Under the pieces are notes generated by a model. That model was given only the letters and a program-made list of their open reading frames with translations, searched no databases and was not told the origin of the DNA. Shown here piece by piece: positions 23,004 to 55,520 of a stretch of 64,000 nt of DNA (within the stretch, counting starts at the first letter, position 1; each line of letters starts with the position of its first letter). The position numbers and the translations under genes were made by a program. Source of the DNA: Linum tenue (lineage: Eukaryota; Streptophyta; Magnoliopsida; Malpighiales; Linaceae); contig CAMGYJ010000006.1 of assembly GCA_946122785.1 (NCBI GenBank), positions 69,255,676-69,319,675 of the forward strand, given 5' to 3'.

Positions 23004-23018
23004 CCAGCTCTGATACCA
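23004..23018 (-). other. Copia primer-binding site (tRNA-iMet)
   Basis: On minus TGGTATCAGAGCTGG directly abuts the 5' LTR. TGGTATCAGAGC is the standard plant initiator-tRNA-Met complement that primes minus-strand synthesis. Confidence 0.9.
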
Positions 23019-28222: not shown

Positions 28223-31200
28223 TCATGCATTGTTTCGACGGTTTGCCCTCTGCTTCCTTGTGCGATGGGCGACTGGTCCACCGGGTGTCGACGATGGTGG
28301 AACTGGTGGCAGACTCCTATTCGCCGTAGAAGCGCGATCATCCGTGCTATGCCGCCTCGGTTCCGTGATAGGTGGCCCCTCCGTCTGCGGCCGAGGGCTA
28401 TCCATGCTCATACGGTGGGGAGAGGATTGCCATTGTTGTTGCCATTGTTGTTGTGGTCGAATCCAAGGTGTGAAGTCTTGTTGTGGAGTGGATTGCCATT
28501 GCTGTTGTTGCCATTGTTGTTGTGGTCGATGCAAAGGTGAGAAGTCTTGGTGGGGACTTGAGTATGAACCCTCGGCCCAAGTAGCTGAAGATGTGCCGTC
28601 ATGAAATGTAGTTGGCCGTTGTTCATACTGGAAACTGGGCCGGAGAGTGTACTGGAAACTTGACCGCGGATCATACTGGCTTCCGGGCGTAGGGCCGTGC
28701 TGAGTACTCCCCCCTTCACCGCTGCACACCTCCAAAGGAGTAGGCGCCTTCCACGCCTCAATCGGTTTGATCTCCGGCACGTGAGGACGATCCCTCACAG
28801 CTTTGTTTTGCCTTCTTTGGACCGGCGGAGGCACTGGGTCAACATCAAGCGTCACCGGCGGCGGTCTCACTGGGGGAACTGGAGGGTATCGCCTATGGTC
28901 ACGTCCGCGCGCTCGCATACAGCCAAGGAGATTGTTCGCTATCCTTAGAATCATCCCCACCTCTCGACCCGCCGCCGAATGTTCTGCGGTACGTGCGAGG
29001 TCGTGGATTCGCTCGATGCCATCAACCTAAATCGAACAAGATAACAAAGTTAGACATTTAAAAAATAATGCACCGCATGACTAAACAAATAAAAACTTAA
29101 TTTCTTACCAAAGCTCCGTCCGCCGCTCCTTCGGGGGTCATGTAACGAACAGATTGTCTTCGGTAGGTTTCCATGTATGGGTCATGGTAGCCCATCCGCC
29201 CCACATGAGATGCCGTCACAATATCCTGATCTTGCCTAACATTCCACAGCCGGATCAATTGCTTATACTCCTCTGGCCAATTAGTAGGTCCTTGTCGACC
29301 ATCTTTCCCGTGGTACCCCTTCTGACTCTCCGGGACATCCAATGGTATGCATTGCTCACGTCCAAATTGTCGTAGACATCGATCCGGCAAGTGCCACTCC
29401 ACTATGTGGTGGCAGATTAGTGGAACTCGGGTGCACCATTGACCGGGATGTAACGGGAACTTATGGACGTGATGCGCAACAATCCGTTCTGGATACGGAT
29501 CGAACTTAAGCTACGAAGGTTTAAATAATAAAACCATTAAGCAACATAATAATATAAGTTAAAAAAAGTAGGGTATTATAGCGTATTATGATGCTCACCT
29601 CTGCTTCCCATAGGTGATCAAGCCTCCTACGATACTCCTCCAGCTTATGCGCTCCTAGATTGTCGCATGTTGTTTCATCAAGCCACCTATTAATATGGAC
29701 AAGTACACAATGTTAGTACCTTAAAAAAATAGCTCGTTACAACAAACTAAATTAGTAAAAAAAATGTGAGAACTATGAGTGGGATAGAAGATATTTACCT
29801 ACAACCATAAGCTTCGTGTCGTAGGGGATGATCGGGTCCCCAATCCTTGTCGGGGTCTACCTTCGGCGCAATCCATTGCAAATGCTCCCAAGCCCAAAAT
29901 TGGACGATGAACATTGCCCCATCAATCTCCTTCACCGCTCTCGCACTAGCATTACATAGGGATCGGTAGAGCTGGGCTAGGCAAGCAGATGCCCAGCTCA
30001 AGTTTCCCATATCATCCCAACTACCAAGTATGATCTTCAACCATGAATTGCTGATTAGGTTGTTGGATTTCTTGGGGAAGAAAACTCCTCCGATCATGCC
30101 GAGGATGTAGATACGTGCATAAATTTCTTTATCACGCTCCGAACTTTCCTCCGTGAGGGGAATGCCTCCGAACTCAGGGTTGTGCTTACGCCTGATCTCC
30201 GCCGTTAACCACGTGATAGATACTTGGCCCTTGGACAATGGTGGATGACCATCCGCATCGTGATCTCCCTTTTCTGGCGGACACAACCCGGTGACCGTCC
30301 ATATAAAATGTTGCCAACCACTCATATTGGCAACAACTTTAGGTGGTGGCGTAGAGTCCACACAAACAACATCACCATCGACGGGGAGATCGGTTAGGAT
30401 GGCGATGTCCTTAAGTGTGATGGTGCACTCGCCTTCACGAAAATTGAAGCAGTGTGTCTCCTTTCGCCATCTCTCTACCATCGCCGTGATGAGTTGGCGG
30501 TCGATCTTAATTCCGTTGAAATGCCTAATCGAATCCAATCTTGCCCTTTTTAGAAAGGGCAAGATGACGTCGTTCCATTCAAGCACATTCGTTGTGCCCC
30601 TATAGCGGACTATATGGTATGCATCCTAGAGAAAAAATTAAATTTCACTATAAGTATATTATAAGATACAATTTATATATAAATCAAGGTTGTTTTAGAG
30701 AAATATACATTATCTAATAAACATTAATTTTAACATAACTAAAATAATTTTATAAGATGCAATATTAATTAAATCAAACGATTTTATAGAAATATACATT
30801 ATCTAATTAACATTAATATTAACATAACTAAACCAATTTTTTAAGATGCAATATTAAATTAAGAGATTTTATAGAAATATACATTATCTAATAAACATTA
30901 ATATTAACATAACTAAAATAATATCCAAATATATTAATTTGTTAATCGTATTGATTATTTTCAATAATTTAAAGCAATACAAGTACACTCGTAAGACTCT
31001 TAGGAGAGGTATACATCTCCTTAGAAACACAGTCTTTTTGACAGAAAAAGGGGGGATCCGAGGATCGCTTAGAACCCGATTTTCCCAGGTCATGGGGGGA
31101 TCATGATGATCGCTTAAGTCCCCATTTCCTTAGACATGCATTTCTTTATAAAGAGTCTCAATAAGTGTTGTATTGTATTGATTTAAACTATTGAAAATAA

Positions 31201-31554
31201 TCAATACGATTAACAATTAAGTAAATTATTGTACAACAAATAAATTACTTTAACAAAATACAAATTACAAGTGATGATAAATAATATGTACCTTATGGTC
31301 GTTCCAAACATCTCTTGAACGATGATTTGATTGATCGTATAAAACTGTCGGATCAATCGGTCCTTGATCAACATAATATCGTTGATTGAAAATATCAACA
31401 TCCGGCCCAACCTACGATAGCATAACAATAACATAAATCATTAGTATATAAATTAAATAAATCATTATAACAACAACAACAATTGAGAAAAATGAGTACG
31501 TACCGTTTGATAATCATCATAAAAAAGACCCTCTTCTTGAGCGAAATCGGCCAT
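28223..31554 (-). CDS. Plant mobile domain (PMD) protein carried by the MULE, six exons
   Basis: Exons on minus: 31554-31504, 31411-31292, 30625-29799, 29686-29599, 29510-29109 and 29026-28223. All junctions have GT..AG ends and matching phases and give about 763 residues with no stop. Exon 3 holds the hallmark MVERWRKETHCFNFREGECT and LKDIAILTDLPVDG, matching the aminotransferase-like plant mobile domain (PF10536; MAIN/MAIL family). PMD continues through exons 4-5 with W-rich motifs (WEHLQWIAP, WLDETTCDN, VEWHLPDRCLRQFG). Exon 6 is a Pro/Gln-rich tail with QQWQQQQW repeats. PMD proteins of plants act in the nucleus in silencing and genome stability; what a MULE-borne copy does is not established. 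It converges on the transposase gene, its end lying 307 bp from the transposase stop. Unlike the transposase, it appears intact. Confidence 0.85.
30938..31242 (-). repeat. Internal inverted repeat, right arm (305 bp)
   Basis: Exact inverted copy of 24667-24971, lying in intron 2 of the PMD gene (30626-31291), while the other arm lies in the 5' intron of the transposase gene. Confidence 0.8.
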
Positions 31555-33374: not shown

Positions 33375-34000
33375 TCGAAAACCCCATCCTCCTCCGCCAC
33401 TCCTTCCCCTCTCCATCTCACCGCCGCAGCCAACTCTTCCTCCCCGCAGCCGACGCCGGGGCCCGTCTCCTCCTCCGCTATTCCTCCTCCCCATGTCCGT
33501 GCTCCCATCTCCTTGTCATCAGCCGTCGTCGGCAGTTCTTCCACCCCACGCCGGAGTTCTTCCCAGGCAACGATACTGATGAGGTCGATGTCATCCCCCT
33601 TCCGGCCAAAAGCTCTATGGAGATCGGATCCACAACATCCTCCACTCACTCTACAATCTGGTCCTCGCACTCCATGCCCACAGCAGGATGAACCTTCTGC
33701 CCCGTCATCCGCCGCAGCCAACTCTTCCTCCCCGCAGCCGACGCCGGGGCCCAGTCTCCTCCTTCGCTGTTCCTCCTCCCCATGTTCGTGCTCCCATCTC
33801 CTCGTCGTCAGCCATCGTCGGCAGTTCTTCCACCCCACACCGGAGTTCTTCCCAGGCAACGATGCTGATGAGGTCGATGTCATCCCCCTTCCGGCCAAAA
33901 GCTCTATGGAGATCGGATCCACAACATCCTCCACTCACTCTACAATCTGGTCCTCGCACTCCATGCCCACAGCAAGATGAACCTTCTGCCCCGTCATCCG
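33372..34000 (+). CDS. Hypothetical Ser/Pro-rich ORF running into the tandem array
   Basis: From ATG 33372 a frame encodes MSKTPSSSATPSPLHLTAAA and continues into repeat unit 1, giving about 200 codons to a stop near 33980. The product is rich in Ser, Pro, Ala and Gln with no recognised domain. The frame changes relative to later units because unit 1-2 has an extra G near 33747. Later units hold in-frame stretches of up to 577 codons (35589-37322) and open antisense frames, so openness here is weak evidence for coding. I would not assign a function. Confidence 0.25.
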
Positions 34001-37000
34001 CCGCAGCCAACTCTTCCTCCCCGCAGCCGACGCCGGGCCCTGTCTCCTCCTTTGCTGTTCCTCCTCCCCATGTCCGTGCTCCCATCTCCTCGTCCTCAGC
34101 CGTCGTCGGCAGTTCTTCCACCCCACACCGGAGTTCTTCCCAGGCAACGATGCTGATGAGGTCGATGTCATCCCCCTTCCGGCCAAAAGCTCTGTGGAGA
34201 TCGGATCCACAACATCCTCCACTCACTCTACAATCTGGTCCTCGCACTCCATGCCCACAGCAGGATGAACCTTCTGCCCCGTCATCCGCTGCAGCCAACT
34301 CTTCCTCCCCGCAGCCGACGCCGGGCCCAGTCTCCTCATTCGCTATTCCTCCTCCCCATATCCGTGCTCCCATCTCCTCGTCGTCAGCCGTCGTCGGCAG
34401 TTCTTCCACCCCACACCGGAGTTCTTCCCAGGCAACGATGCTAATGAGGTCGATGTCATCCCCCTTCCGGCCAAAAGCTCTGTGGAGATCGGATCCACAA
34501 CATCCTCCACTCACTCTACAATCTGGTCCTCGCACTCCATGCCCACAGCAGGATGAACCGTCTGCACCGTCATCCGCCGCAACCAACTCTTCCTCCCCGC
34601 AGCCGACGCCGGGCCCAGACTCCTCCTTCGCTGTTCCTCCTCCACATGTCCATGCTCCCATCTCCTCGTCGTCAGCCGTCGTCGGCAATTCTTCCACCCC
34701 ACACCGGAGTTCTTCCCAGGCAACGATGCTGATGAGGTCGATGTCTCCCCCTTCCGGCCAAAAGCTCTGTGGAGATCGGATCCACAACATCCTCCACTCA
34801 CTCTACAATCTGGTCCTCGCACTCCATGCCCACAGCAGGATGAACCTTCTGCCCCGTCATCCGCCGCAGCCAACTCTTCCTCCCCGCAGCCGACGCCGGG
34901 CCAAGTCTCCTCCTTCGCTGTTCCTCCTCCCCATGTCCGTGCTCCCATCTCCTCGTCGTGAGCCGCCGTCGGCAGTTCTTCCACCCTAAAATGGAGTTCT
35001 TCCCAGGCAACGATGCTGATGAGGTCGATGTCATCCCCCTTCCGGCCAAAAGCTCTGTGGAGATCGGATCCACAACATCCTCCACTCACTCTACAATCTG
35101 GTCCTCGCACTCCATGCCCACAGCAGGATGAACCTTCTGCCCCGTCATCCGCCGCAACCAACTCTTCCTCCGCGCAGCCGACGCCGGGCCCAGTCTCCTC
35201 CTTCGCTGTTCCTCCTCCCCATGTCCGTGCTCCCATCTCCTCGTCGTCAGCCATCGTCGGCAGTTCTTCCACCGCACACCGGAGTTCTTCCCAGGCAACG
35301 ATGCTGATGAGGTCGATGTCATCCCCCTTCCGGCCAAAAGCTCTGTGGAGATCGGATCCACAACATCCTCCACTCACTCTACAATCTGGTCCTCGCACTC
35401 CATGCCCACAGCAGGATGAACCTTCTGCCCCGTCATCCGCCGCAGCCAACTCTTCCTCCCCGCAGCCGACGCCGGGCCTAGTCTCCTCCTTCGCTGTTCC
35501 TCCTCCCCATGTCCGTGCTCCCATCTCCTCGTCGTCAGCCGTCGTCGGCAGTTCTTCCACCCCATACTGGATTTCTTCCTAGGCAACGATGCTGATGAGG
35601 TCGATGTCATCCCCCTTCCTGCCAAAAGCTCTGTGGAGATCGGATCCACAACATCCTCCACTCACTCTACAATCTGGTCCTCGCACTCCATGCCCACAGC
35701 AGGAAGAACCTTATGCCCCGTCATTCGCCGCAGCCAACTCTTCCTCCCCGCAGCCGACGCCGGGCCCAGACTCCTCCTTCGCTGTTCCTCCTCCCCATGT
35801 CCGTGCTCCCATCTCCTCGTCGTCAGCCGTCGTCGGCAGTTCTTCCACCCCACACCGGAGTTCTTCCCAGGCAACGATGCTGATGAGGTCGATGTCATCC
35901 CCCTTCCGGCCAAAAGCTCTGTGGAGATCGGATCCACAACATCCTCCACTCACTCTACAATCTGGTCCTCGCACTCCATGCCCACAGCAGGATGAACCTT
36001 CTGCCCCGTCATCTACCGCAGCCAACTCTTCCTCCCCGCAGCCGACGTCGGGCCCAGTCTCCTCCTTCGCTGTTCCTCCTCCCCATGTCCGTGCTCCCAT
36101 CTCCTCGTCGTCAGCCGTCGTCGGCAGTTCTTCCACCCCACACTGGAGTTCTTCCCAGGCAACGATGCTGATGAGGTCGATGTCATCCCCCTTATGGCCA
36201 AAAGCTCTGTTGAGATCGGATCCACAACATCCTCCACTCACTCTACAATCTGGTCCTCGCACTCCATGCCCACAGCAGGATGAACCTTCTGCCCCGTCAT
36301 CCGCCTTAGCCAACTCTTCCTCCCCGCAGCCGACGCCGGGCCCAGTCTCTTCCTTCGCTGTTCCTCCTCCCCATGTCCGTGCTCCCATCTCCTCGTCGTC
36401 AGCCGCCGTCGGCAGTTCTTCCACCCCACACCGGAATTCTTCCCAGGCAACGATAATGATGAGGTCGATGTCATCCCCCTTCCGGCCAAAAGCTCTGTGG
36501 AGATCGGATCCACAACATCCTCCACTCACTCTACAATCTGGTCCTCGCACTCCATGCCCACAGCAGGATGAACCTTATGCCCCGTCATCCGCCGCAACCA
36601 ACTCTTCCTCCGCGCAGCCGACGCCGGGCCCAGTCTCCTCCTTCGCTGTTCCTCCTCCCCATGTCCGTGCTCCCATCTCCTCGTCGTCAGCCGTCGTCGC
36701 CAGTTCTTCCACCCCACACCGGAGTTCTTCCCAGGCAACGATGCTGATGAGGTCGATGTCATCCCCCTTCCGGCCAAAAGCTCTGTGGAGCTCTGATCCA
36801 CAACATCCTCCACTCACTCTACAATCTGGTCCTCGCACTCCATGCCCACAGCAGGATGAACCTTCTGCCCCGTCATCCGCCTTAGCCAACTCTTCCTCCC
36901 CGCAGCCGACGCCGGGCCCAGTCTCCTCCTTCGCTATTCCTCCTCCCCATGTCCGTGCTCCCATCTCCTCGTCGTCAGCCGCCGTCGGCAGTTCTTCCAC

Positions 37001-38448
37001 CCCACACCGGAATTCTTCCCAGGCAACGATAATGATGAGGTCGATGTCATCCCCCTTCCGGCCAAAAGCTCTGTGGAGATCGGATCCACAACATCCTCCA
37101 CTCACTCTACAATATGGTCCTCGCACTCCATGCCCACAGCAGGAAGAACCTTATGCCCCGTCATCCGCCGCAGCCAACTCTTCCTTCCGCAGCCGACGCC
37201 GGCCCCAGTCTCCTCCTTCGCTGTTCCTCCTCCCCATGTCCGTGCTCCCATCTCCTCATCGTCAGCCGTCGTCGCCAGTTCTTCCACCCCACACCGGAGT
37301 TCTTCCCAGGCAACGATGCTGATGAGGTCGATGTCATCCCCCTTCCGGCCAAAAGCTCTGTGGAGCTCTGATCCACAACATCCTCCACTCACTCTACAAT
37401 CTGGTCCTCGCACTCCATGCCCACAGCAGGATGAACCTTCTGCCCCGTCATCCGCCTTAGCCAACTCTTCCTCCCCGCAGCCGACGCCGGGCCCAGTCTC
37501 CTCCTTCGCTGTTCCTCCTCCCCATGTCCGTGCTCCCATCTCCTCGTCGTCAGCCGTCGTCGGCAGTTCTTCCAGCCCACACCGGAATTCTTCCCAGGCA
37601 ACGATGCTGATGAGGTCGATGTCATCCCCCTTCCGGCCAAAAGCTCTGTGGAGATCGGATCCACAACATCCTCCACTCACTCTACAATCTGGTCCTCGCA
37701 CTCCATGCCCACAGCAGGAAGAACCTTATGCCCCGTCATCCGCCGCAACCAACTCTTCCTTCCGCAGCCGACGCCGGGCCCAGTCTCCTCCTTCGCTATT
37801 CCTCCTCCCCATGTCCGTGCTCCCATATCCTCGTCGTCAGCCGTCGTCGGCAGTTCTTCCACCCCACACCGGAGTTCTTCCCAGGCAACGATGCTGATGA
37901 GGTCGATGTCATCCCCCTTCCGGCCAAAAGCTCTGTGGAGATCTGATCCACAACATCCTCCACTCACTCTACAATCTGGTCCTCGCACTCCATGCCCACA
38001 GCAGGATGAACCTTCTGCCCCGTCATCCGCCGCAGCCAACTCTTCCTCCCCGCAGCCGACGCCGGGCCCAGTCTCCTCCTTCGCTGTTCCTCCTCCCCAT
38101 GTCCGTGCTCCCATCTCCTCATCGTCAGCCGTCGTCGGCAGTTCTTCCACCCCACACCGGAGTTCTTCCCAGGCAACGATGCTGATGAGGTCGATGTCAT
38201 CCCCCTTCCGGCCAAAAGCTCTGTGGAGATCGGATCCACAACATCCTCCACTCACTCTACAATCTGGTCCTCGCACTCCATGCCCACAGCAGGATGAACC
38301 TTCTGCCCCGTCATTCGCCGCAGCCAACTCTTCCTCCCCGCAGCCGACGCCGGGCCCAGTCTCCTCCTTCGCTGTTCCTCCTCCCCATGTCCGTGCTCCC
38401 ATCTCTTCGTCGTCAGCCGTCGTCGACAGTTCTTCCATCCCATCGCCT
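33423..38448. repeat. Tandem array of a 288-bp unit, about 18 copies
   Basis: The word CCAACTCTTCCT recurs near 33427, 33718, 34008, 34296, 34584, 34870, 35158, 35446, 35734, 36022, 36310, 36598, 36886, 37174, 37462, 37750, 38038 and 38326, a spacing of 288 with small indels. Units are about 95% alike by eye. Variants shared by units 11/13 (CTTAGCC, GATAATGATG) and 12/14 (GTGGAGCTCTGATCC) show a 576-bp higher-order repeat. 288 is 96 codons, so frames persist through the array. The last copy runs directly into gypsy RNase H sequence. GC-rich and C-rich on +. Confidence 0.95.
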
Positions 38449-40205
38449 TTATGAGTAAGACACCGGCGCCGTCTAAGGAGGCGTGGTCGACATAAAAGAA
38501 GGAAATGCAGGCGATCATTACTGCAGCACAGACATGGCGGCCGTATCTCCCGGGGCAGAAATTTCACATATACACCGACCACCAGAGTTTGAAACACCTT
38601 TTAGAGCAGAGGGTGTCTACACCAGATCAGCATAAGTGGGTGTCGAAGCTGCTAGACTACGACTATGAGATCCATTACCGACCAGGGCCTACTAATGTGG
38701 TGGCAGATGGCCTATCTAAGAAACCGGGCAGTGAGATCCTCGCCCAGTGACAGGGCCAGTTTCGCAGTTTTGGGATGAGTTGCGGGCATCCATGAAGACC
38801 AGTCAGTATTTACAGGATTGCCAGGAAATCGCCTTTAGCGACAACCCGGGGCATTATATGTTTCGACAGGGACTGGTGACCTTCAAGAGTCGGGTGGTCC
38901 TTCCTCTAGGTTCAAATTTGGTCACTTCAGTACTGGAGGAGTTCCATGATTCTCCATTGGTCGTTCAATTAGGCGCCGAGAGGACACTCCGCCGAATTAG
39001 AGGCCATTTTTACTGGCCCCGGATGGCGCAGGCGGTGAAGGCCTATTTGGAGTCATGTAATACGTGCTAGAGGGTGAAGCTGTCTCACCTGCGGCCGGCC
39101 GGACTCCTTCAGCCGATGCCGGTGCCGGAGCGGGTATGGGAGGATATTAGCATGGATTTCATCGTGGGATTACCTCCCTCGGGTGGAAAGACGGTGGTGT
39201 TCGTGGTAGTGGATCGGCTCACTAAGTATGCCCATTTTCTGCCATTGGCGCATCCGTACACTGCTAAGTCTGTGGCCGAGCAGTCCGTACACTGTTAAGT
39301 CTGTGGCCGAGCAGGTCGATCGTCAGTGATCGTGACCCGGTTTTCTTGAGAAGGTTTTGGCAGGAGGTCTTTGCGATGGCACAGACGGTTTTACGCATGA
39401 GCTCGGCCTATCATCCCCAGACTGATGGCCAGACGGAGATCGTTAACAAGCACCTCGAGCAGTATTTGAGGTGCTTCACCCACCAGCAGCCGAAGCAATG
39501 GCTGGCCATGCTCCCTTGGGCAGAATTGTGGTATAACACCACGTATCATCGGGCCATCAAAATGACCCCGTGTGAGTCTATACGGGCGTCCACCCCCGAC
39601 GTTGGTGCAGTACAAGGGCGGATCGAGTTCGGTTGACGCGGTGGACAGGTGCCTGGGCGCGCGAGACGAGGCTTTGGAGCAGTTACAAACCAATTTGGCG
39701 GCAGCAAACAACCGGATGAAGCAGGCTGAAGATGCAGGGCGGCGGGATGAGGAGTTTGAGGTGGGTGATTGGGTACTGTTGAGGTTGCATCCCTACCGGC
39801 AGTCTTCGGTCTTCCGTCGGGCATACCAGAAGCTTGCGGCTCGATTCTTTGGGCCGTATGAAATCACCCACAAGGTCAACCCTGTTGCTTATAGGCTGCA
39901 GCTACCTGCAGGTTCCCGCATACACCCGGTGTTCCACATTTCCTTGCTGAAAAGGTACCGGGGCCCGGCGGACAGAGTGACTTCGACGGCTCCTCCGGCG
40001 ACAGCCGATGGTGACTTGGAGCTGGTTCCTCTCAAGGTGTTGGAGACACGGTGGACGAAGAAAGGAGGGCGGCTGGTGGAAGAGATCTTGGTGCAGTCGA
40101 AGCACGTGGAGCCGGAAGATGCCAGCTGGAAGAGTCAGAGATGCTCCGACAGAGGTTTCCGGATTTCGACATCGAGGCCGATGTCGATTCTGAAGGAGGA
40201 GGGGA
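38449..40205 (+). pseudogene. Gypsy RNase H - integrase - chromodomain remnant
   Basis: Recognisable in order: AFMSKTPAPSKEAWST then a stop; RNase H (IYTDHQSLKHLL, YRPGPTNVVADGLS, 38505-38750); after a frame change the H2C2 finger region (HFYWPRMAQAVKAY, ESCNTC); a stop at 39068; integrase ([14 protein letters not shown]); a 31-bp tandem duplication (39255-39316) that breaks the frame; a deletion of the segment before VSDRDPVF; AYHPQTDGQTEIVNKHL; a further frame change near 39630; and the C-terminus HPVFHISLLKRY with a chromodomain-like PLKVLETRWTKKGG..EEILVQ..EDASW, where a usual Trp is Ser. In live elements the chromodomain steers integration to heterochromatin. Clearly dead. Confidence 0.85.
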
Positions 40206-40477
40206 TGTGGGAAACCCGACCCTTGGTTAGGGAGAGAGGGCCGGCTCGGCCAAGAGGGGGGGGGGGAAAGAGTGGCAAACTTATGATTTATGTTATTTTC
40301 AGTTTACTGCTACTAAAGGCTACGACTCATTAGTTGTGGGAATTAAGCAATAATAATCAGAAATTCTCAATCCCTAATCCCTCTTCTCTCTCTCTTGTTC
40401 TTCCCCAATTCTCCAAATCCCTAAATTCTTCTCTTCTCAATCCCTAAATTTCCAATTGGGATTTCTTGTGTCTTACA
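40206..40477 (+). repeat. Gypsy 3' LTR, 272 bp
   Basis: TGTGGGAAACCCGACC..TGTCTTACA with TG..CA ends, preceded by the purine-rich GAAGGAGGAGGGGA. Its 3' half is rich in TCCCTAAT/TCTCTT words. No partner LTR in the window. Confidence 0.7.
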
Positions 40478-41104
40478 ACCGTGGTCTACCTCAGTAAACC
40501 GCGACAGACAGTGACACACTACCTACTAACTTAGACCAAAATAACACTAAATTAAACCTCCCATTTATGTATTAGAGAATAAAATTAGTTGATTATTAAT
40601 CAAGTTGAGATCCAAAAGATTGTCCAAATGATCTCTTATGCGTGATCTCCTTATCAAAGAACCACACAAACATAGGATAGATAGCTTGAGTTATCTCCTT
40701 GTAAAAAAATGACACAAACATAAGGTAGATTCATAAATAATATATCACTGACAATGTCTAGACTATGGACTCGATAAAGCAGAAAGACTAAAAAAAATTC
40801 ATTCAACTTGATGAGATAAGAAAAATTATTGAGAGATAAGCGACCATCTTGGTGGTTCAAAACGACCTCGACGTCATCAAGACGTTGCTCCATTGCAAGA
40901 ACCTTTTGGATCACCCGAGAGAGGGAGAGAACAGAACACATGTTCTTTTCCTCCGGCTGCGTACTATGAGATTGTCCTCCGACAACGTACTTCTGGACTA
41001 GGCAAGTCCCCAACGATAGACAACACAGGTTCTTTTTGGCGACCGCTGTGGATTGGCTTCAGATGAATCTTGACGAGGCTAACAGGCGACAACTTGGGCA
41101 TTGA
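40478..41104. other. Unassigned sequence
   Basis: A minus frame (40654-41013) has a short heptad-like stretch (VLAMEQRLDDVEVVLNHQDG) that could be a decayed coiled coil, but no family is recognised. Otherwise nothing is seen. Confidence 0.3.
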
Positions 41105-42689: not shown

Positions 42690-44050
42690 TGATAATCGGC
42701 TTTAATATATCGGATTCTTGAACTTTATGTGACTATACCATGATATATTAAAGCCAATTGGTGCTATTTTAGGGCTCGCTAACCCGGGAATGGTTGAAAA
42801 ACCATTACTGCCTAGTGCCATGAGTTTGATATGTTACAGGTGGAGAAAGCACGAAAAAAAAAACGAGTGCACAAGCAATTAATGGGGCTCGAATCACTGG
42901 TGGAATACTCATTTGGGCTAGGAGGAGCAGTGGGCCGAAATGGGCCGGAAGTGGTATTGTGGGAGGATGCTGGAGGATTTGGGCGGAGGAATTGTTGGGC
43001 GGAAGGCCCAACTGAATTGGACACAAGGCTGGCGGCCTTGAGGAAAAAGAGAGGACGCAAGGATTTTTTGGGGCCAGAGACTATTAGAGGAGGGGGCTGG
43101 GAATTATAAGGGGACTATTATTTGGTGGCTCTTTTTTTTGGACGGGAAAAAAATTCTCTGGAGGCGAAATTTTGGGAGGCAAGAGAATTTCTTTTGGGGA
43201 AGAAAAAGGCAGAGGGCGCAGCGGAAGTTTGGGGACGCGCGGAGCAAGCAACATGCGATTGAAGCGGGAAGGAATTAGTACCAGGATTACGATCGAGAAT
43301 CTCAGTATTTTTCCTTTAGCTTTAATTGATACGATGATGATTATAAACATAATTGTGTGCTTTACTTTCGTCATGAACTAAATCCCAATTTCTGGGGGAA
43401 ACACCATAGGATGTAGCTATTTCTATATTTGATGGATTGATTCATATATCTTTTCTTCCAATCTCTATTGCATGAAATTACTTTGCTTTGTGTTGACTGG
43501 CCACCAATACATTGATTTGTTGTTAATTAGGTTATTAGCGACAGTAAAACCCTAATAACTGAACATAGTTCATGTGACATAGTAACTTATCGAAGCGACA
43601 GTGGATTAAATAAGGTGCTATGCGGTTTTAAATAGGATATCGATCTTTAGGCTAAATAATTAAGTTATTGAGTTACGACAGTAGGATTTGATTTAATTGT
43701 TTAGTACGTAGTAATTCCCGACAGGAGTAGCTAGCACAGTAGTGATATCCTGGCTGTAGAGAGTTGGATTAAATTGATTGGAATATGTGAATTAATCTGG
43801 ATAGGATAGGTAGTGAGTCCCGGTGTTTCTCCCAGAGCTTTCTCCTTTGAATTTCGCCCGACAGTTTTCATTTAGTTAATTTGTTTATTTTAATTTGCTT
43901 TTAGAAATTAGTCTCATTAAACTATTTTCACTTATAGTTTGCTCATAAATTTGATAGAATATAAGGTTGTACCAGTCCATGAGAGACGATACCCGGACTT
44001 TCCAGTATACTACGAGATAGGAAATTGGCATATACGCTTTTGCCCTATCA
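42690..44050 (+). repeat. Athila-like 5' LTR
   Basis: TGATAATCGG..CCCTATCA. Near its start a 14-bp perfect inverted pair (GGCTTTAATATATC at 42698-42711, inverse at 42742-42755) can form a hairpin. GC-rich AAGAGAATTTC/GGAGGC blocks at 43120-43250 are conserved in the 3' LTR. Confidence 0.85.
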
Positions 44051-44056
44051 AGTTTT

Positions 44057-44074
44057 TGGCGCCGTTGCCGGGGA
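44057..44074 (+). other. Athila-like primer-binding site (tRNA-Asp type)
   Basis: TGGCGCCGTTGCCGGGGA begins 6 bases after the 5' LTR; it is the standard primer site of Athila-group gypsy elements. Confidence 0.85.
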
Positions 44075-44383
44075 CTGCCATACCTTATTTTTATTGATTT
44101 TTGTGAGTGAACTATTTTGATCTGGGTGTAAGTGTGCAGGAGAATTTTCAGGTTTATCCTCCTTGTGCAAGCATAGGAGGACGACCGGCGATTTACTGCC
44201 ACTAGATCCGGAGATCGAGAAGACCTGCCGACAGAATAGGAAGCAGGTCAAGTTAGGGAAGCAGCCAACCACAACTCCTAGGACTTCTCTAACCCATAAT
44301 CGTCAACAGAGAGAGCAGGCTTCATCACCTGTCATCCCTACACCACCGACACCACCACCGCGCGACATCGATCTTGTCACCAT

Positions 44384-46934
44384 GGAAGACCAGGATCGTT
44401 CGATCAGGGCTCGCTTGAATCGAAGGACTGGAGCCCGAGCTTCATGTGTTGTCATTCCGGCTGGTGATGCAACCATGGAGATTACCCCAGCATTCATCAA
44501 TATGATCACCAATTGGTATACTTTCTCAGGCGCTAGCACTGAGGATCCTCACGAGCATCTTTGCCGGTTTGCGAGCATATGTGATACGATGAAAAGCCCC
44601 ACAATATCTGATGATGCAATCCGCCTTCGTATGTTCTCATTCTCTTTGTTAGGGAATGCATCACACTGGTTTCAGAACATAACACCTCGATCGATCACGA
44701 CATGGGCTCAGCTTGAGAAGGTCTTTCTAGATAAGTACTTCCCACCTACCTTGGCAATGAAGAGGCAAGAGAAAATTGTTACTTTTAAGGAGGCTGATGA
44801 TGAGAGTCTAACTTAGGCATGGGAGCGCTATAAGGGGCTATTGATGAGATGCCCAAGCCATGGTCTTGAAGATTGGAACGTGATCATTATTTTCTTCAAT
44901 GGAATCAGAAGGGAGTTCCGAGATGCCTTGAATAATGCTTCTCGAAATGGTTTCACAAGCATGGAGGCACCAGCAGCATATGATATGGTAGAGAAGATCT
45001 GTTCAGAAGCCACTGAATGGGGTAGTGAGACCAGTATTCGAAGAAGAGGAGGCTTGCATGAGATAAACAGAGTTGCGAGTCTAGAAGCCAAGATAGATGC
45101 CAAGCTGGATTCTAAGTTTGATGCACTCGAACGAAGATTGGCCAAGATTGCTCTTGGTAGACAAGAGGAGGTTACTTTATGTGAACTTTGCGAGGGTCCT
45201 CGTCATAGGGATATGTGTCCACTGAGAGCTGCTCAGTTGGAAGATGTCCAATATATCAATAATCCGCGAAGTCAAGGCTAGGGTGGTATGTATTCAAATA
45301 CATAAAACCCTCAATGGAGACATCACCCCAATATGTCATGGTCAAACAATAATCCAGCTGGTGTTCGAAACATCCCACCTCCCCGTTTCCAGCAACAGCA
45401 ACCTCAACCAGAGAAGAAGCCCCAGTTAGAGGAGTTGATTTTGCCTCATATGCAGAAAACAGACAATAATTTCAAGGGTCTAGATCAATTTGTCACTCAA
45501 CAGCTAGCCATCAACAACAATATGCAATCATCTATGCTAGCTATGGAGAGGCAAATAGGCCAGATGGCTCAGACTTTGGCAGATATTCATGGTAGGATTC
45601 CTGGGACTTTACCGCCAAATGCCGAGAGGAATCTGAAGGACGCCATGGTTGTAGCTGTCACATTGAGGAGTGGGAAGGAGTTGGAGGATCCAAAGAGCAA
45701 GAAAAATCCAGTAGAAAAGGAGGACAAAGGAGCTGCAGAGGAAGAAAGTGCAAAAGCTGAAAAATCTAACTTGCACAGGCAAACTGCATGCAATCTGCCT
45801 GTGCATGAGCATTCTGCCTGTGCACCTCCAAAGGTGGAAAAATTGAAGAATGAAGAGGTAAAGCCTTGCGAACCTCCCGCACCATTCCCTTAAAGGTTAA
45901 TGAAGCCCATGAAAGACCCAAACTTCAAGAAATTTGTGAATATCTTCAAGCAACTTCATATCAACATACCGTTGGCGGAGGCACTTGAACAGATGCCTAC
46001 ATATGCTAAATTCTTAAGGGAGTTGCTGACAAAGAAGCGCCAATGAGCTGATCTGGAGAAGGTAACCCTTACTTCTAAATGTAGTGTTGTGATTCAGAAT
46101 AAATTACCAGTAAAGAGGGATGATCCGGGCAGTTTTACCATTCCATGTGTCATTGAAGGTACAGAGTTCGATAAATCACTTTGTGATCTTGGAGCAGGAA
46201 TTAATTTGATGCCATACTCAGTCTACAAGAAATTGGGATTGGGAGATGTTCTTAAGCCTACTCGGATCACTCTCCAATTGGCCAATCGATCAGTAAAAAT
46301 TCCAAGGGGAGTGGTGGAGAATGTATTGGTGAAGGTGGGGAAGTTTATTCTCCCAACAGATTTTGTGATTCTGGAGATGGAAGAAGATCGGGGAGTGCCT
46401 CTCATTCTTGGTAGACCTTTTCTAGCAACTGGAGATGCACTCATCGATGTTGGGAGAGGCAAACTGACATTCCGAGTAGGTAAGGAGGAGGAAATTTTTA
46501 ATGTCATTCAAGTTGATCATAATCACGATGCATTTGATGACTTTGAAAGTGGAGCTCGAGAAAGGAAAAATCCCTTCTCCTGTGATAGTGGACAACCTGA
46601 ACAACTATCACATGTCCTATCTGCTCAGATTCTGAAATCAAAGCAAGGACAGAAATCCTTGCCAGATCACCTCAAGTATAGATATTTGGGTAAGGATTTC
46701 AATCTTCCTGTTATTATTCTTTCTTCACTGACATTGAAACAAGAAGAGTACTTGCTTGAGGCGCTTCAGTACCACCTACGCCTCACTAAAGGATCCAATA
46801 TGCCAACTAAGAAGGTCCCACCAAATTTTCGCACACCTGGCCCTGCAGAGGTGACTCATATGTTGGATGGAGGTTATGCGTTCTATCATTGCTCGGGAGG
46901 GTATTCTGGATACCTTTACATACCCATTGGTTGA
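44384..46934 (+). pseudogene. Athila-like gag-protease frame with five nonsense codons
   Basis: One reading frame runs from ATG 44384 to 46934 with no frameshift. It is interrupted only by TAG 44814, TAG 45279, TAA 45303, TAA 45891 and TGA 46044. Gag landmarks: FSGASTEDPHEHLCRF, IRLRMFSFSLLGNASHWF, TWAQLEKVFLDKYFP. A cysteine motif CELCEGPRHRDMC sits near 45181-45222. Protease: CDLGAGINLMPYSVYKKLGL (the family's C-LGAS-N-MP motif) and VPLILGRPFLATG. After about 46560 the sequence goes to a 3' Athila-type tail (EEYLLEALQYH) with no RT. All five stops are one C-to-T change from Gln or Arg codons. Confidence 0.8.
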
Positions 46935-48478
46935 AAGCTCCATGAACGTTAGGCTGATGACGTTAAACAAGCGCTTCTTGGGAGGCAACCCAAGGTAAGT
47001 TTTCTTTTCTTTATTTTTCTTTTTAGTTGTGTCAAACCCGTGCATGTTTAGATTAGGAGTTGAACATTAGGAACATTGTTCCATCCTGAGTGTGGGGTGG
47101 TGAGTCTTAGTGTTTGTTTGTTCCTATTGCATGTGGTAAAAAAATAAAAATAAAAACTGTTATTTGGGCTATGCACAGTCAAACTGCATGCAGTCTACCT
47201 GTGCTAGTGCAGTCTGCATGTGCTAACCTAATGGCTAAAAAAAACACCTAAAATGAGAAAAATTAAAAACAAAACCTTGTACTCTTGTGATAACATGATG
47301 TAAATGACCGTGATGCGTGTGAAATGAGTTTGTGCTTGAAGGAAATCATCAAAATCGCCCAACTAGTGTTGAATTGCAAAGTTCTTCACAATGAGCTTAA
47401 TGTTTTGACTGACTTGATGTGCTTTGGATGAGCAAACTCTTTTATCAACATTCTCTTTTGGGAGGATAGTGTAATGACTTATGGTGAAGTGGTTAGGTGG
47501 AGAACATTGACCATTCGACATGTTTGGATACCGTGCTTATTTGCATCAATTGTGAGCTTTTGATTTTGCAATGAGTCTCTCTGTTTTGATTATTTTATGA
47601 TGGGGTGAACTGTATCTTTATAAAAAAAAATCCTACCTGACAAGTATAATATAAGAAAGTTGCCATAACAATTAAAGTGTGGGTAAAATGCCAAAATCGT
47701 GTGAGGCAATCACTCATTGCACAGGGGGATTAGGAAAGGTTCAACTGAGCATCGGTTCGCGACCGTAAGATGTTGCTTATCAAGTACGATCCCCCGTTGA
47801 GTGAAGTGCCATTTGAGGATGTGCAGTGACCCTCCACACGGACCGAGGAAAAGGAGTTGAAAGAAGCCCTTATGCGAGTGCTAAGAAGCAGAAATTGCTC
47901 TTGCTCGGTCACCGGTAGTAAGAAACAAATCCCACTTGTACTAAGTACAACTACTCGGCAAGCAAAATCAGAAAGAGAGAAAGCATCTCCTTGTCATAAA
48001 AGGTAGTGATGTGCTTAAAGTTAAAATCATGTTTGCGAAAGGCTTCCCCCATTATTTTTTTGAGACTCATGCTTTGTTAATTACTTATGATTGGTGTGAG
48101 TAAGCCAGATTGTCCTCACGAGATATGCACCTCACTGATGTGGTTAGATTCTCCTAATAACTGTTGCACCATAAGTTGTTAATCCCCCACTACCGACGAT
48201 CGAAATTGAGTGTGGCTATTTGAGTTTTTGGTGGATTTGAGTCAGTCAATGGTTAAATGGTTGCAAGACCTTGAGTGTGGGGTGAAAGGTATGATCATTA
48301 AAGCACAACTTGTCCGTTGAGAAAGAAACTACTGATTACAAAAAGAGTACAAGGAAAATTTTGTTTTGTTTTGAGTGTTTGATTGTTGAGTCTGTGGTGT
48401 GTCATTGTTATGGATGGTTATATGTTTGTGTCTTTTGAGTCGTTGCTTAGGGACAAGCAACAATTGAGTGTGAGGTTG
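46935..48478 (+). other. Athila-like 3' internal non-coding region
   Basis: No gene. It contains TTGAGTGTGGGG-type words typical of Athila 3' regions (near 47088, 48271 and, as the polypurine-like tract TTGAGTGTGAGG, 48463-48475) and a second copy of a CTGCATG/CCTGTGC motif (about 47178-47222) also present in gag. Confidence 0.6.
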
Positions 48479-49800
48479 TGATAATCGACTTTAATATATC
48501 GGATTCTTGAACTTTATGTGACAATCCCATGATATATTAAAGCCAATTGGTGCTATTTTAGGGCTCGCTAACCCGGGAATGGTTGAAAAACCATTACTGC
48601 CTAGTGCCATGAGTTTGATATGTCACAGGTGGAGAAAGCACGAAAAAGAAGAGAGTGCACAAGCAATCAATCGGGCTCGAATCACTAGTGGAATACTCAC
48701 TTGGACTAGGAGGAGCAGTGGGCCTAAATGGGCCGGAAATGGTATTGTGGGAGGATGATGGAGGATTTGGGCGGAGGAATTGTTGGGCGGAAGGCCCAAC
48801 TGAATTGGACACAAGGCTGGCGGCCTTGAGGAAAAAGAGAGGACGCAAGGATTTTTGGGTGCCAGAGATTATTAGTGGAGGCGGCTGGGAATTATAGGGG
48901 GGACTATTATTTGGTGGCTCTTTTTTGGACGGGAAAAAATTCTCTGGAGGCGAAATTCTGGGAGGCAAGAGAATTTCTTTTGGGGAAGAAAAAGGCAGAG
49001 GGCGCAGCGGAAGTTTGGGGACGCGCGGAGCAAGCAACACGCGATTGAAGCGAGAAGGAATTGGTACCAGGATTACGTTCGAGAATCTAAGTATTTTTCC
49101 TTTAATTTTAATTGATACGATGATGATTATAAACATAATTGTGTGCTTTACTTTCGTCATAAACTAAACTCCAATTTCTGGGGGAAATACCATAGGATGT
49201 AGCTATTTCTATATTTGATGGATTGATTCATATATCTTTTCTTCCAATCTCTATTGCATGAAATTACTTATTATGCTTTGTGTTGACTGGCTACCAATAC
49301 ATTGATTTGTTGTTAATTAGGTTATTAGCGACAGTGAAACCCTAATAACTGAACATAGTTCATGTGACATAGTAACTTATCGAAGCGACAGTGGATTAAA
49401 TAAGGTGCTATGCGGTCTTAAATAGGATATCGATCTTCAGGCTAAATAATTAAGTCATTGAGCTACGACAGTAGGATTTGATTTAATTGTTTAGTACGTA
49501 GTAATTCCCGACAGGGATAGCTAGCACATTCGTGATATCCTGGCTGTAGAGATATTGATTAAACTGATTGGAATATGTGAATTAATTTGGATATGATAGG
49601 TAGTGAATTCCAGTGTTTATTCCAGAGCTTTCTCCGTTGATTTCTCCCGACAGTTTTAATTTAGTTACTTTGTTTATTTTATTTTGCTTTTAGAAATTAG
49701 TCTCATTAAACTATTTTCACCTATAGTTTGCTTTATAAAATTGATAGAATATAAAGTTGTATCAGTCCCTGAGAGACGATACCCAAACTTTTCGATTTAC
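48479..49800 (+). repeat. Athila-like 3' LTR, 3'-truncated
   Basis: Starts TGATAATCGACTTT and matches the 5' LTR until about 49800, where similarity ends before the expected CCCTATCA. No target duplication can therefore be scored. Confidence 0.85.
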
Positions 49801-49814
49801 TAACAAGTGAAGAA

Positions 49815-51705: not shown

Positions 51706-52049
51706 TAATAGAAACCCGATTCTTCGTGATCTATCATATTATCATTTATAGTATTTCTTAGGATTTTATTAGATATGGTTAGAAGTATTTGAGTGGATAG
51801 TCTATTAGGTTTTCCGGTCTTTAGTTATAAATATGTATTTTGCGTTTTATTCAGAATCAATCAAGAAGAATATTAAGAAAAACTCTCCTAAACCCTAATC
51901 TCCCAATCCTCTCAATTCTCGATCTCAACTCTCTAAAGGCTTAAGCTGATGCTCTATCTTTCTCTTCTCAAATCTCTAATTTTGTTCTTCAATCCCTAAA
52001 TCCCAATTCCACAACCCGACCGATAGATTCTTAGCAACAGGTTCTATCA
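51706..52049 (+). mobile_element. Solo LTR, 344 bp
   Basis: TAATAGAAACC..GGTTCTATCA (the first bases probably TG originally), flanked by the 5-bp duplication GACCC at 51701-51705 and 52050-52054. TATAAATA near 51826 and A-rich downstream sequence suggest + orientation. It interrupts minus-strand pseudogene sequence. Confidence 0.75.
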
Positions 52050-52346
52050 GACCCTGCATTATAGAAGTATACTGAAAGTTGAGATAACTTAGCAGCCAGT
52101 TCACAAGACCATCCATCAACAAGTTCATTCCTGAAACAAATTCCATCTATATGAAAAGAGCACATCACCTGCAAAAGAAAGTAAAGCCTCTCTGACCTCG
52201 TGCATGATGACATTGATCTATCTGCAGTTCCATGAAAAAGAATGATGGGCGACAAATGAGATACAACAGCTTAGGCACTTGGATCCTTTAGTCTAACTTC
52301 AGGCGATAATTTATGCAATGATTCCTCACACTTCATTATGTTGTAT

Positions 52347-52718
52347 TGTTAGAAACAAAGTTTCTAACGTGTTTCTAAATCAGATCTAGAGATTGGGAAT
52401 TTAGGGTTTATAGGATAGAATTGGGGATTTAGGGATTTGAGGAGAATTTGGGGAAGAATAGAAAGAACGGCCGAAGCCTCTAGGAAGAAGGATAGACGAG
52501 ATTTGAGAGAAAGAGATTAGTGATTTGGGGAAGGAGGACTTTTCTATTAATTTCTGCTTAATCTGACGAATGACCCAAAGTACATATATATAGGGAAATA
52601 CTAGAAAACCCTAAGAATAAACCTAATTCTATTAAATGACTACTAACCTTGTTGATAATTACCCTAATAATAATTATATTAATAAATAGAGAAACCCTAC
52701 AGAAATCGGTTTCTAACA
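52347..52718 (-). repeat. 3' LTR of the HSP20-domain element
   Basis: 372 bp, TG..CA ends. On minus a TATATATA-type box lies near 52583-52592. Confidence 0.9.
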
Positions 52719-54951
52719 TCTCCTCCCCCTTCAGACCAACCTTGCCCTCAAGGTTGAACCACTTTACCCAATCTTTTCCCCTTCCCGTGCCATCCACACG
52801 TTGACTCCTCCATTTCTTGCGCTTCCTTCCCTTCCAATCGTGCTCCACCACTTGACTTGGCCTTCTTTCTTCTATCTCCTGGTATTGCTCCAAAATTGTG
52901 AATTTCATCAATGATAGCCACATCCTTGCGTCCTTAACGAATTCAAACCTCCCCAACGCCTCTTTCGATATCATTGCCATCCAGCAACGCAAGGGACTCA
53001 AGAATTCGCTCTTGTTCAAGAACACATCCTTGAGTACCATTTCATCAAGGCCCTCGAAAAGTTTTCCTGGTGCTAGCCCACTGGCTTGGTCAATGGTTTC
53101 TTCAATCTGCATTGGGTCATGCCTTCTCTTAAGCCCATTTCCTTCTCTCTTTAAATTATCTCCCTGCAAAATGGGTCCAATAAAACAGTCCACATGAAAA
53201 CTCAGCCTAGCCTTACCAAGAACCCAGCCGGTTCCCTTGTCATTTGGCCCACGAACAAGCTTTTGCTTAAACCATCTAACCCAAAACCTTGGCATGTCCT
53301 CCTGATCCCTTCGGCCCCAGGAAAGCCCAGTTTGCCGGCCTGCTTTGGGCCCGCTCGGCTTGTGAGGCCCAGTCAAGTCGAGCCCGACTGACCAGTGAGG
53401 CCCACGACCACTTCTGCTTAGAAGTGCTTCACGGCCCAAGGAAGCAGTCCTAGGGTTTGTGAGCAGAGAGGAATTGCCGCTCTTCACCCTTCCCTTGCTC
53501 GTCGCGAGCTTCTTTCTCCCTGTCACCGAGCAACCCGAGCGGTGGCTCGACTCCGCCTCCGCCTTGCGTCGGCGGTCGATTCTGACTCCTAGCGTCATCT
53601 TCCAGTCCGTCGGCGAGTCTTCCACCAGTAGCTCAGCTCTTGATTTCGTCTCCGGGGATGATTACTCCACCAGCTTCGCCCTCCCTTTTGTTTCTCCTCC
53701 GTCGACCGCCACAGCGAATAGCCTCAACTCCGGCGATGAACGACTCACCTGACAGCTAGGTGGCAATCCCGATCCCGGTTCCAACTTCGCTTTGCGTTCC
53801 TTCTCTGGCTCGTCGTCTGCCGCGCCGGTCCTTCGCTCCGCCATCGTTGCCGCGACTGGAACTGCCGACGACTGTGACCGTGGCGCCTCTTCTCCCTTCT
53901 CAATCGGCGACCGGATTATCACGCTGGATCCTCGAACAGTGCGAGAAGGAAAGACGTTGCCACCCTTCATCTTCTCTCTCTCCGGCGGCGAGGGAGGAAA
54001 CTCACCGCCGCCTCCCTTCTTTCTCTTTTTCTTCCTCGGCGAGAAGAGGGTCCTGCCGCCGTCATCCTCCTTTCCCTGCGGCGACGAGCTGCTCATCACG
54101 CGGGCGGAAGGCCAATCCACCTCCGCCCTAGACTCCTGGTTCATCACCTCGTCCGTCATCGCCACGAACGGATCTTTCGACGGCTGCGGCGCTTCATCCT
54201 CGTCGGTTGACGAATTCGGCTTCTTCTTCCTGTCTTTCCAATTAGCCCTGCCATTATTCTTCATTAAATTGTTGAATGGGGATTCGGGCTCTCTGAGATC
54301 CTCAGCGGTCGACCTTCCCACCTCTACTGAGGAGATTGTGGTCTTTGAAGCTGCAACAGCAATGGTCGGCGCGATTGCGGTCCCCATGCTTGCGACAGAG
54401 TCGGCTGTGCCTGTTGGTGATGATAGCGGGTGAACCTCAACAATCTTCTTTGCATCGGCCAGCAAAGCCTGTGATTTGGCTAGCTCCGTTGGTTCTCCTT
54501 CCTCGTTCATCTCCTTGGCTGGTGGTTCAATACTGACACGCGGCTGTGGTGGTGCTTCGAGGTTTGCCGGCGTCTCCTCAACCTGTGGTGGGACTTCGGT
54601 TGCTGCCTCTTCGTCGTGAACAGGAGGTGTGATGATTTTTGGGATCTGAAGGATGAAATCAGTTTCCCCAAACTTAGTACGATACCATTTGATGTCGTGG
54701 ATTGCTCTGAATTTGATTTGCTTTTTGAATCGTAACCACCGGTGACCATCAGCCAACAGTCGTTGTCCCGTTATTGCTAGCACATCCGATCCAACCACCT
54801 GCACATCTACGTGATCCTCTTCGAATCCAGGCAAGGTGAAGAACAAGACAACGCTATGTCGTAGCTCTATCCTCATGCTGTCAGGTTTGAAGTCTTCATA
54901 TATCTGTTCGTCCCCGGTTGAGAGTTGTGGCAAATTCAGTTTTTCGACCAT
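52558..54951 (-). pseudogene. Retrotransposon ORF with N-terminal HSP20-like domain, one stop
   Basis: A frame of about 797 codons from ATG 54951, which directly follows the primer site, to a stop inside the 3' LTR. It is broken only by TAA at 53662-53664. Residues about 17-105 resemble an alpha-crystallin (HSP20-like) domain: IYEDFKPDS, VVLFFTLPGFEEDHVDVQV, LAITGQRLLADGHRWLRF, TKFGETDFILQIPK. The order YEDF-P..LPGF..G-R..RW-RF-K..F..IPK is that of plant HSP20-like proteins such as RTM2. A long disordered Glu/Pro/Ser/Lys-rich region follows. The last third is basic and partly helical (ALGRFEFVKDARMWLSLMKF) and ends in the NLEGKVGLKG segment that retroelement polyproteins often show before the polypurine tract. 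Its role is unknown: a captured chaperone-like gene or a strongly diverged gag are both possible. Confidence 0.7.
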
Positions 54952-54966
54952 GGCTCTGATACCAGA
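54952..54966 (-). other. Primer-binding site (tRNA-iMet) of the HSP20-domain element
   Basis: On minus TCTGGTATCAGAGCC, followed at once by ATGG, so the start codon abuts the primer site and leaves almost no leader. Confidence 0.85.
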
Positions 54967-55338
54967 TGTTAGAAACAAAGTTTCTAACGTGTTTCTAAAT
55001 CAGATCTAGAGATTGGGAATTTAGGGTTTATAGGATAGAATTGGGGATTTAGGGATTTGAGGAGAATTTGGGGAAGAATAGAAAGAACGGCCGAAGCCTC
55101 TAGGGAGAAGGATAGACGAGATTTGAGAAAAAGGGATTAGGGATTTGGGGAAGGAGGACTTTTCTATTAATTTCTGCTTAATCTGACGAATGACCCAAAG
55201 TACATATATATAGGGAAATACTAGAAAACCCTAAGAATAAACCTAATTCTATTAAATGACTACTAACCTTGTTGATAATTACCCTAATAATAATTATATC
55301 AATAAATAGAGAAACCCTACAGAAATCGGTTTCTAACA
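54967..55338 (-). repeat. 5' LTR of the HSP20-domain element
   Basis: Pairs with 52347-52718; followed by the TGTAT duplication. Confidence 0.9.
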
Positions 55339-55520
55339 TGTATCCACACGTTAGATGAACTGGATAAGGTGACAAATATGTGCAAACACTTAACTGAAAT
55401 AGAACAACAAAAATTTACGAGTTGGAATTGTTAGTTTCCTGGGAAGTTACCTTGAGAAAATTGAGTGATACGGACCATGGTTGTGGAGCTGGTCAACCAA
55501 CTTCAATAGTTTGTACCTGA

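Follow-up and report, generated by a model that had tools for sequence, protein, structure and literature searches.

A stretch of 64,000 nt from Linum tenue (contig CAMGYJ010000006.1, positions 69,255,676 to 69,319,675), referred to below as the window, carries a long terminal repeat (LTR) retrotransposon whose single open reading frame (ORF) begins with an alpha-crystallin domain (ACD) of the HSP20 type. The element is 2,992 bp long and occupies positions 52347..55338 on the minus strand. Taken together, the results make it quite probable that it represents a recently active, non-autonomous family that combines cis-acting parts derived from a Ty3/gypsy lineage, enzymes supplied in trans, and a fusion ORF kept by selection and headed by an ACD captured from a host gene of a kind that we take to be RTM2-type.

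The element shows paired TG...CA LTRs, a target-site duplication, a primer-binding site, and a polypurine tract, in agreement with the original prediction, which was made from the sequence of the window and had described an LTR element with an exact TGTAT duplication on its flanks and near-identical LTRs of 372 bp. The two LTRs are identical at 367 of 372 positions, differing by 4 transitions and 1 transversion (divergence K = 0.0136), and the primer site is one that we take to be of the initiator-Met tRNA type. The element is composed of the following parts:

54967..55338, minus strand, 5' LTR of 372 bp, TGTTAG...CTAACA
52347..52718, minus strand, 3' LTR of 372 bp, with 5 differences from the 5' LTR
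52342..52346 (left) and 55339..55343 (right), no strand assigned, target-site duplication TGTAT, exact on both flanks
54953..54964, minus strand, primer-binding site TGGTATCAGAGC, just inside the 5' LTR
52719..52731, minus strand, polypurine tract AAGGGGGAGGAGA, just outside the 3' LTR
53662..54951, minus strand, first part of the ORF (P0002), 429 codons and a stop
54910..54951, minus strand, residues 1-14, encoded by the leader of the element, a segment common to siblings lacking the HSP20 domain
54631..54909, minus strand, HSP20/alpha-crystallin domain, residues 15-107
53665..54618, minus strand, middle of the ORF, charged, low-complexity-looking by eye, and variable between copies
52720..53058, minus strand, conserved C-terminal tail beyond the stop, in the same frame, residues 202-314 of P0001 (EHDWK..RKRKKW...NLEGKVGLKGEE), with a ratio of nonsynonymous to synonymous substitutions (dN/dS) below 1

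Assuming 1.3e-8 substitutions per site per year, the LTR pair indicates an insertion age of about 0.5 million years. The family has probably been active recently, and 14 further elements have LTR divergences K between 0 and 0.025, with 5-bp duplications that are exact in 12 cases and contain one mismatch in the other two. Pfam searches of the two pieces of the window ORF gave no family at E <= 1, and hence no protease, reverse transcriptase, RNase H, or integrase, as expected of a non-autonomous element; the PDB search was likewise empty. No pol enzyme was detected by Pfam in three whole sibling ORFs, where the only match was a weak one to RNase P in L032 (E 0.046).

The ORF starts with an ATG at 54951, beside the primer site, and runs over 797 codons to 52561 with one in-frame stop (53662-53664, codon 430), which is the frame that had been predicted. 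Its last 53 or so codons lie within the 3' LTR, leaving a non-LTR part of 744 codons. The two parts on either side of the stop were kept separate in all searches.

Family-level sequence evidence identifies the N-terminal domain of the ORF as an alpha-crystallin/HSP20 domain. When 25 copies of the domain, the window's included, were scanned singly, 20 matched PF00011 at E <= 1 (best 2.1e-6), and a scan of the genome with PF00011 returned 51 matches, at least one of which is a family member (C8:46504744, 28.6 bits against a cut-off of 20.8). A profile built from the 25 copies retrieved 23 PDB sequences at E <= 1, with a best value of 3.3e-5 and 27.1 bits for the best small heat-shock protein (sHSP). 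Nineteen of these sequences are named heat-shock proteins and 3aab (ST1653) is titled hsp14.0, the last three rows being other proteins. In alignments of 24 and 25 domain copies, which reach down to approximately 32-37% identity with the window domain, conservation is 90% or more at residues L40, P41, G42, F43, W72, and R74 and complete at F75.

Capture of this domain from a host gene, which the original prediction had suggested for a chaperone-like gene, is likely on the score of one host gene and on a missing intron. The host genome contains HSP20-like genes with the pattern of the element domain (YED-P, LPGF, L-I-G-R, W-RF-K, P-K). The gene on contig C4 reads MATG...YEDFEP...LLVYLPG, followed by a GT-AG intron inside a glycine codon and then by FRKEQMKVQV...RFKKEI...HPKLI. 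Five host loci were compared with the family profile. The C4 gene with its exons joined scored 71.2 bits (50.5 for exon 2 alone) and the exon-2 pieces of three other RTM2-type loci 56.6, 31.6, and 20.7 bits, as against 12.7 bits for another host HSP20-like gene and 3.9 bits for the best of 200 shuffled sequences. The element domain is thus closer to the host genes labelled RTM2-like than to the other ACD proteins compared, whether from the host (71.2 vs. 12.7 bits) or among the sHSPs of the PDB (27.1 bits). In the element, the domain runs through the LPGF junction without an intron, which fits capture from a spliced RNA; splicing in a later retrotransposition would produce the same loss. Siblings lacking the HSP20 domain match the leader of the window element only as far as nt 57-59 after the LTR, and the captured part therefore begins there.

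The genome of the host (G000; 692 Mb in 17 contigs) contains 94 matches to the first ORF part, of which 66 span the domain, near-identical places such as L061 and L062 being counted separately. The matched part is free of stops in 48 of these 66; the enclosing frame reaches at least 600 codons in 23 cases and at least 800 in 9. Siblings L034 and L037 have main frames open over 679 and 723 codons, respectively, compared with longest runs of 102 and 145 codons in the other two sense frames. These lengths and the 23 long frames indicate that the open frame is longer than chance would allow. The second ORF part gave 126 scored genome matches, 117 of which extend to residue 307 or further. Four of its matches follow one another within 8 kb at C6:4082374-4090283, possibly as a local array of elements, and four with equal or near-equal scores occur within 50 kb at C10:14683212-14733060, perhaps through segmental duplication.

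The original prediction suggested that the protein is kept by selection, and the evidence for this is good, although not final. Among 23 intact domain copies (29 were extracted and 6 dropped for stops), the median dN/dS was 0.41 (range 0.15-0.83) over 242 pairs with dS between 0.05 and 1.2, and the shifted frames gave 0.64 and 1.76. A more distant subfamily, represented by 9 of 13 fetched copies and 36 pairs, yielded 0.415 (range 0.09-1.42), with 1.21 and 0.69 in shifted frames. For the C-terminal region (13 copies of the tail and 8 of the part preceding it), the medians were 0.39-0.47 vs. 0.72-1.20 in shifted frames. The only relative found in the protein database is P0003 of Linum trigynum, which shares 67% identity with the window domain (99 residues) and 91% with copy L072 of the L. 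tenue genome (117 residues). Later searches of that database failed to recover even P0003, and their empty results are given no weight. Since P0003 is nearer to L072 than to the window domain, the sequences suggest that the domain subfamilies are probably shared by the two Linum species.

The domain is one exchangeable part of a modular family. Among 20 sibling loci fetched for LTRs 85-94% like those of the window element, 4 were found to have an HSP20-like N-terminus, which in one case is only 32% identical. The expectation that siblings carry the ORF is thus borne out by the long frames described above, but many siblings with similar LTRs lack the domain. Other siblings retain the tail VEHDWKKRKRKKW...VNLE(G/D)KVGLKGEE but begin with MSSSKLSNLSWAELRDRARRIGRRW or related segments. 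In place of the ACD, a conserved N-terminus SWAELR-RARRIGRRW is present in L032, L033, L035, L040-L043, L047, L049, and L050, all without the HSP20 domain; the first 200 residues from this start in L033 had no match in Pfam, and it may be another captured module or an original one. The region of L036 contains gypsy reading frames on the opposite strand and was set aside as a probable nested insertion.

The LTRs and the ORF do not share one history. The nearest relative of the window ORF, on contig C7, is 93% identical over 424 residues, whereas its LTRs are only approximately 75% alike. When the two elements were compared in blocks of 100 nt, identity was 92-99% at 401-1,600 and 24-80% elsewhere, with the exception of 90% at 2,701-2,800. 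Across the 25 domain-bearing copies, LTR identity and domain identity are uncorrelated (Mantel r = 0.095, p = 0.13; r = 0.87 between the two domain halves), which implies that element parts reassort. Domains 98.8% identical occur with LTRs 72% identical, and LTRs 97.6% identical with domains 73% identical. Template switching between co-packaged RNAs is the likeliest source of such mosaics. Of 21 copies, 17 carry the LTR end ACTTTGTTTCTAAC unchanged and 18 the primer site TGGTATCAGAGC, and this conserved stretch would offer a natural switch point.

The search of the genome with the LTR, in which 41 of 1,468 candidates were scored, also bears on an autonomous partner sharing LTR, primer site, and polypurine tract, about which the original prediction had asked. 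A related Ty3/gypsy remnant lies in the window itself:

38496..40478, plus strand, Ty3/gypsy remnant with RNase H, integrase zinc finger, and Tf2-type SH3 domain; LTR start at 40163-40219, U5 at about 40387-40457

The pol terminus, polypurine tract, and LTR start of this remnant align with those of the family, and the LTR of sibling L050 begins with TGTGGGAAAC, as does that of the remnant. The U5 portions match over 80 columns at 77.5% identity with four siblings (52 bits) and, for the window LTR, at 79% over 67 columns (48 bits); when dinucleotide blocks were shuffled 100 times, no score exceeded 27.4 bits. This likeness is confined to short stretches of the LTR, and the U3 part does not match. 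Given the similar pol terminus, polypurine tract, LTR start, and U5, the family seems to be derived from such a gypsy lineage, and the remnant likely represents its partner lineage. P0004, read in its own frame, has no family-like terminus; the match is at the nucleotide level and in another frame. Another candidate partner in the window, the copia element at 17884-23335, was rejected: it has the same type of primer site, but its LTR ends differ and the family element has no match to it in the window.

Several observations weigh against the interpretation given above. The window copy has its own frame broken at codon 430, although intact siblings exist. Taken alone, its residues 1-109 match HSP20 in Pfam with E = 0.071 and 13.6-13.7 bits, below the PF00011 cut-off of 20.8, and match the PDB with E = 0.021, while the whole ORFs of the domain-bearing L034 and L037 had no Pfam match at E <= 1. 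Because of the score below the cut-off, the single window copy is no proof of the domain, and it is the family copies that supply it. An AlphaFold model built on 2 sequences was poor (pLDDT 50). With this low-confidence model, the first 25 of 50 Foldseek rows were small heat-shock or crystallin chains (E 0.035-0.39), none of them significant; three of these 25 rows are titled Stress-induced protein 1, which we take to be an sHSP. The RTM2-type label was assigned by us from the sequence pattern alone, and the C4 intron, 79 nt between codon boundaries and 82 nt from GT to AG, was placed by consensus and frame rather than from complementary DNA. The dN/dS pairs are mutually dependent, 0.4 is a moderate value, and single values for the C-terminal tail reach 1.50. 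The LTR halves are themselves poorly correlated (r = 0.10), so that the LTRs are either mosaic or noisily aligned, and part of the discordance between LTRs and domains may reflect recombination within LTRs or alignment noise. Finally, no intact autonomous partner was seen among the loci examined, only the Ty3/gypsy remnant. The 20 fetched LTR loci include no autonomous member (LTRs pair in 16 of them, and the elements measure approximately 1.7-3.0 kb), and the scored genome matches of both ORF parts include no frame of more than 890 codons.

The observations are best explained by the following scenario. The cis parts of the family (pol terminus, polypurine tract, and LTR) would descend from the Ty3/gypsy lineage, and its enzymes would be supplied in trans. 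In one branch, an intron-free HSP20-like host sequence of the RTM2 type would have been inserted approximately 58 nt after the 5' LTR, so that the element came to encode a fusion protein with an ACD, a long variable middle, and the basic C-terminal tail common to siblings lacking the HSP20 domain; co-packaging and template switching would then yield the mosaics. The protein would presumably act in cis, because a factor acting in trans would let broken copies multiply just as efficiently as intact copies. Its ACD might make it self-associate, and the basic tail might bind the element RNA or take it to the nucleus, so that the protein would mark its own transcript for packaging in the particles of the partner. 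The ORF contains a basic KKRKRKK stretch, whose resemblance to a nuclear localization signal is our own reading. Binding and marking of the element's own transcript, for packaging or for return to the nucleus, is the most likely mode of action among those considered, and we favor it tentatively. The use in particle assembly that the original prediction had suggested is a conjecture.

A less likely possibility is that the protein counteracts silencing, its ACD and long variable region entering or poisoning host assemblies of ACD proteins and methyl-CpG readers (MBD5/6-ACD15/ACD21 or MBD7-LIL-ROS5), so that methylated copies would be transcribed. The ACD, the variable region, and the basic stretch of the ORF would suit such a role, and plant ACD proteins are described as working in methyl-CpG-reader complexes that silence or unsilence: in Arabidopsis, silencing requires ACD15 and ACD21, which drive multimerization of the MBD5/6 complexes responsible for silencing both genes and transposable elements (PMC10651127), whereas LIL and ROS5 suppress the silencing of methylated reporter transgenes (PMC5462541). 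Among the loci compared, the domain is, however, closest to a two-exon host gene labelled RTM2-type (71 bits, as against 12.7 for one other host HSP20-like gene), and RTM2 and its homologue SLI1 are described as transmembrane hsp20-like proteins that are located in the phloem and act in resistance to viruses and aphids (PMC7077274). A broader version, by which the family has turned a host ACD against silencing and defense, jams methyl-CpG-reader assemblies, keeps itself and related LTR elements transcribed, and tries different host targets by swapping N-terminal heads, ACD or other, on the common basic tail, would be somewhat less probable again.

It is unlikely that the domain is a passenger, captured by chance in a protein that does nothing and whose frames are open mainly through the youth of the insertions. 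The nearly identical LTR pairs are compatible with this, as are the dN/dS values of recent and close domain pairs (0.42-0.69, one 1.53) and the activity of HSP20-less siblings with similar LTRs; these siblings thrive without the domain, which is therefore not required for mobility. In contrast, three deep pairs (dS 0.55-0.73) have domain dN/dS of 0.27-0.39, with higher values in shifted frames. Lower values in deep than in recent pairs are expected if selection acts during propagation and insertions drift afterwards. The domain residues conserved across diverged copies, the frames of at least 600 codons kept in 23 of 66 matches, and the constraint on the tail likewise argue against a passenger.

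It is very improbable that the domain only resembles HSP20 and is instead an unrelated beta-sandwich or an ancient gag-like one. The single-copy Pfam scores are weak, and DUF7127 weakly matches 3 of the 25 domain copies and is sub-threshold with the window ORF pieces. Nevertheless, the family-level evidence favors HSP20 and is strongest with the host HSP20-like gene, the likeness extending to the YED-P motif, which lies outside the core domain. In addition, no gag family was matched in Pfam by the window ORF pieces, the domain copies, or the whole sibling ORFs, in line with the original prediction, which had recognized neither gag nor pol. Least probable of all is that the domain-bearing units are host genes merely flanked by retrotransposon LTRs, since, although the genome does contain HSP20-like host genes of this kind, the frame extends from primer site to polypurine tract, paired LTRs with 5-bp duplications surround the elements, and leader and tail are common to elements without the domain.

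Neither ORF-bearing non-autonomous LTR elements nor LTR elements that have captured genes are new in themselves. TR-GAG elements are short and have complete LTRs, a primer-binding site, a polypurine tract, and one long ORF without pol. This architecture and that of other one-ORF non-autonomous plant elements resemble the window element; unlike TR-GAG, however, its ORF has no gag domain in Pfam and begins, as do those of its siblings, with an ACD or another N-terminus. The Ty3/gypsy lineage with the Tf2-type SH3 domain resembles the family in the element ends, while reverse transcriptase, RNase H, and integrase are lacking from the window and sibling ORFs searched with Pfam. The RTM2/SLI1-type proteins, a label that we assume, resemble the element domain in the five motifs listed above and in the 71-bit score of a gene of the same genome, and differ in the intron inside LPGF. 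RTM2 and SLI1 carry a transmembrane segment (PMC7077274). In the element protein, the domain is followed by an unrelated variable region and then by a basic tail. Transduced-gene LTR retrotransposons (Bs1 of maize; surveys in rice and sorghum) and aORF elements similarly contain host gene sequence in sense orientation, as outlined in two reviews (PMC7264820, PMC13317346); here, unlike in those elements, the captured part is the in-frame start of the only ORF and is kept in dozens of copies. One review also reports an idea that plant ENV-like proteins might act as replication chaperones (PMC7264820; PMC13317346), and the terms "heat shock" and "HSP20" have zero counts in both reviews (PMC7264820, PMC13317346). 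A literature search covering titles and the beginnings of abstracts found no description of an HSP20/ACD domain in an LTR retrotransposon ORF; an ACD as the selected head of a retrotransposon's only ORF is apparently new.

Captured genes in retrotransposons have mostly been described as fragments that are carried along, whereas here a captured domain heads the only ORF, is constrained in dozens of copies and apparently in more than one species, and moves between LTR backgrounds. This opens to testing why non-autonomous elements retain long ORFs (cis-preference) and whether transposable elements encode counter-measures from the ACD proteins used in plant silencing and defense. The uncoupling of LTR and ORF histories would be a sharp case of reticulate retrotransposon evolution and a warning on LTR-based classification.

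The window contains a number of further repeats. The element is adjoined by a diverged LTR fragment of its own family in opposite orientation, which accounts for the inverted repeats at the element:

51736..52009, plus strand, diverged LTR fragment of the same family, matched by the LTR of sibling L063 at 78% identity over 247 columns of 51774-52002 (E 6e-47)

The LTRs of further siblings give matches between 51734 and 52009. The copia element at 17884-23335 has 319-bp LTRs (97.8% identical), gag, integrase, and RVT_2, with an 18/54-bp tandem repeat at 19945-20352 inside or beside its coding region. A probable Mutator-like element spans 24641-31270, where inverted repeats of approximately 336 bp (24641-24976 and 30933-31270) enclose matches to MuDR transposase and SWIM. 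At 33421-38442, a 288-bp tandem repeat is present in 17.4 copies with 95% matches and has long open frames in several frames; this array lies near the gypsy RNase H remnant at 38496. At 42690-49802, retrotransposon gag and aspartyl protease frames are enclosed by 1.3-kb direct repeats (93.9% identical), which probably mark another LTR element.

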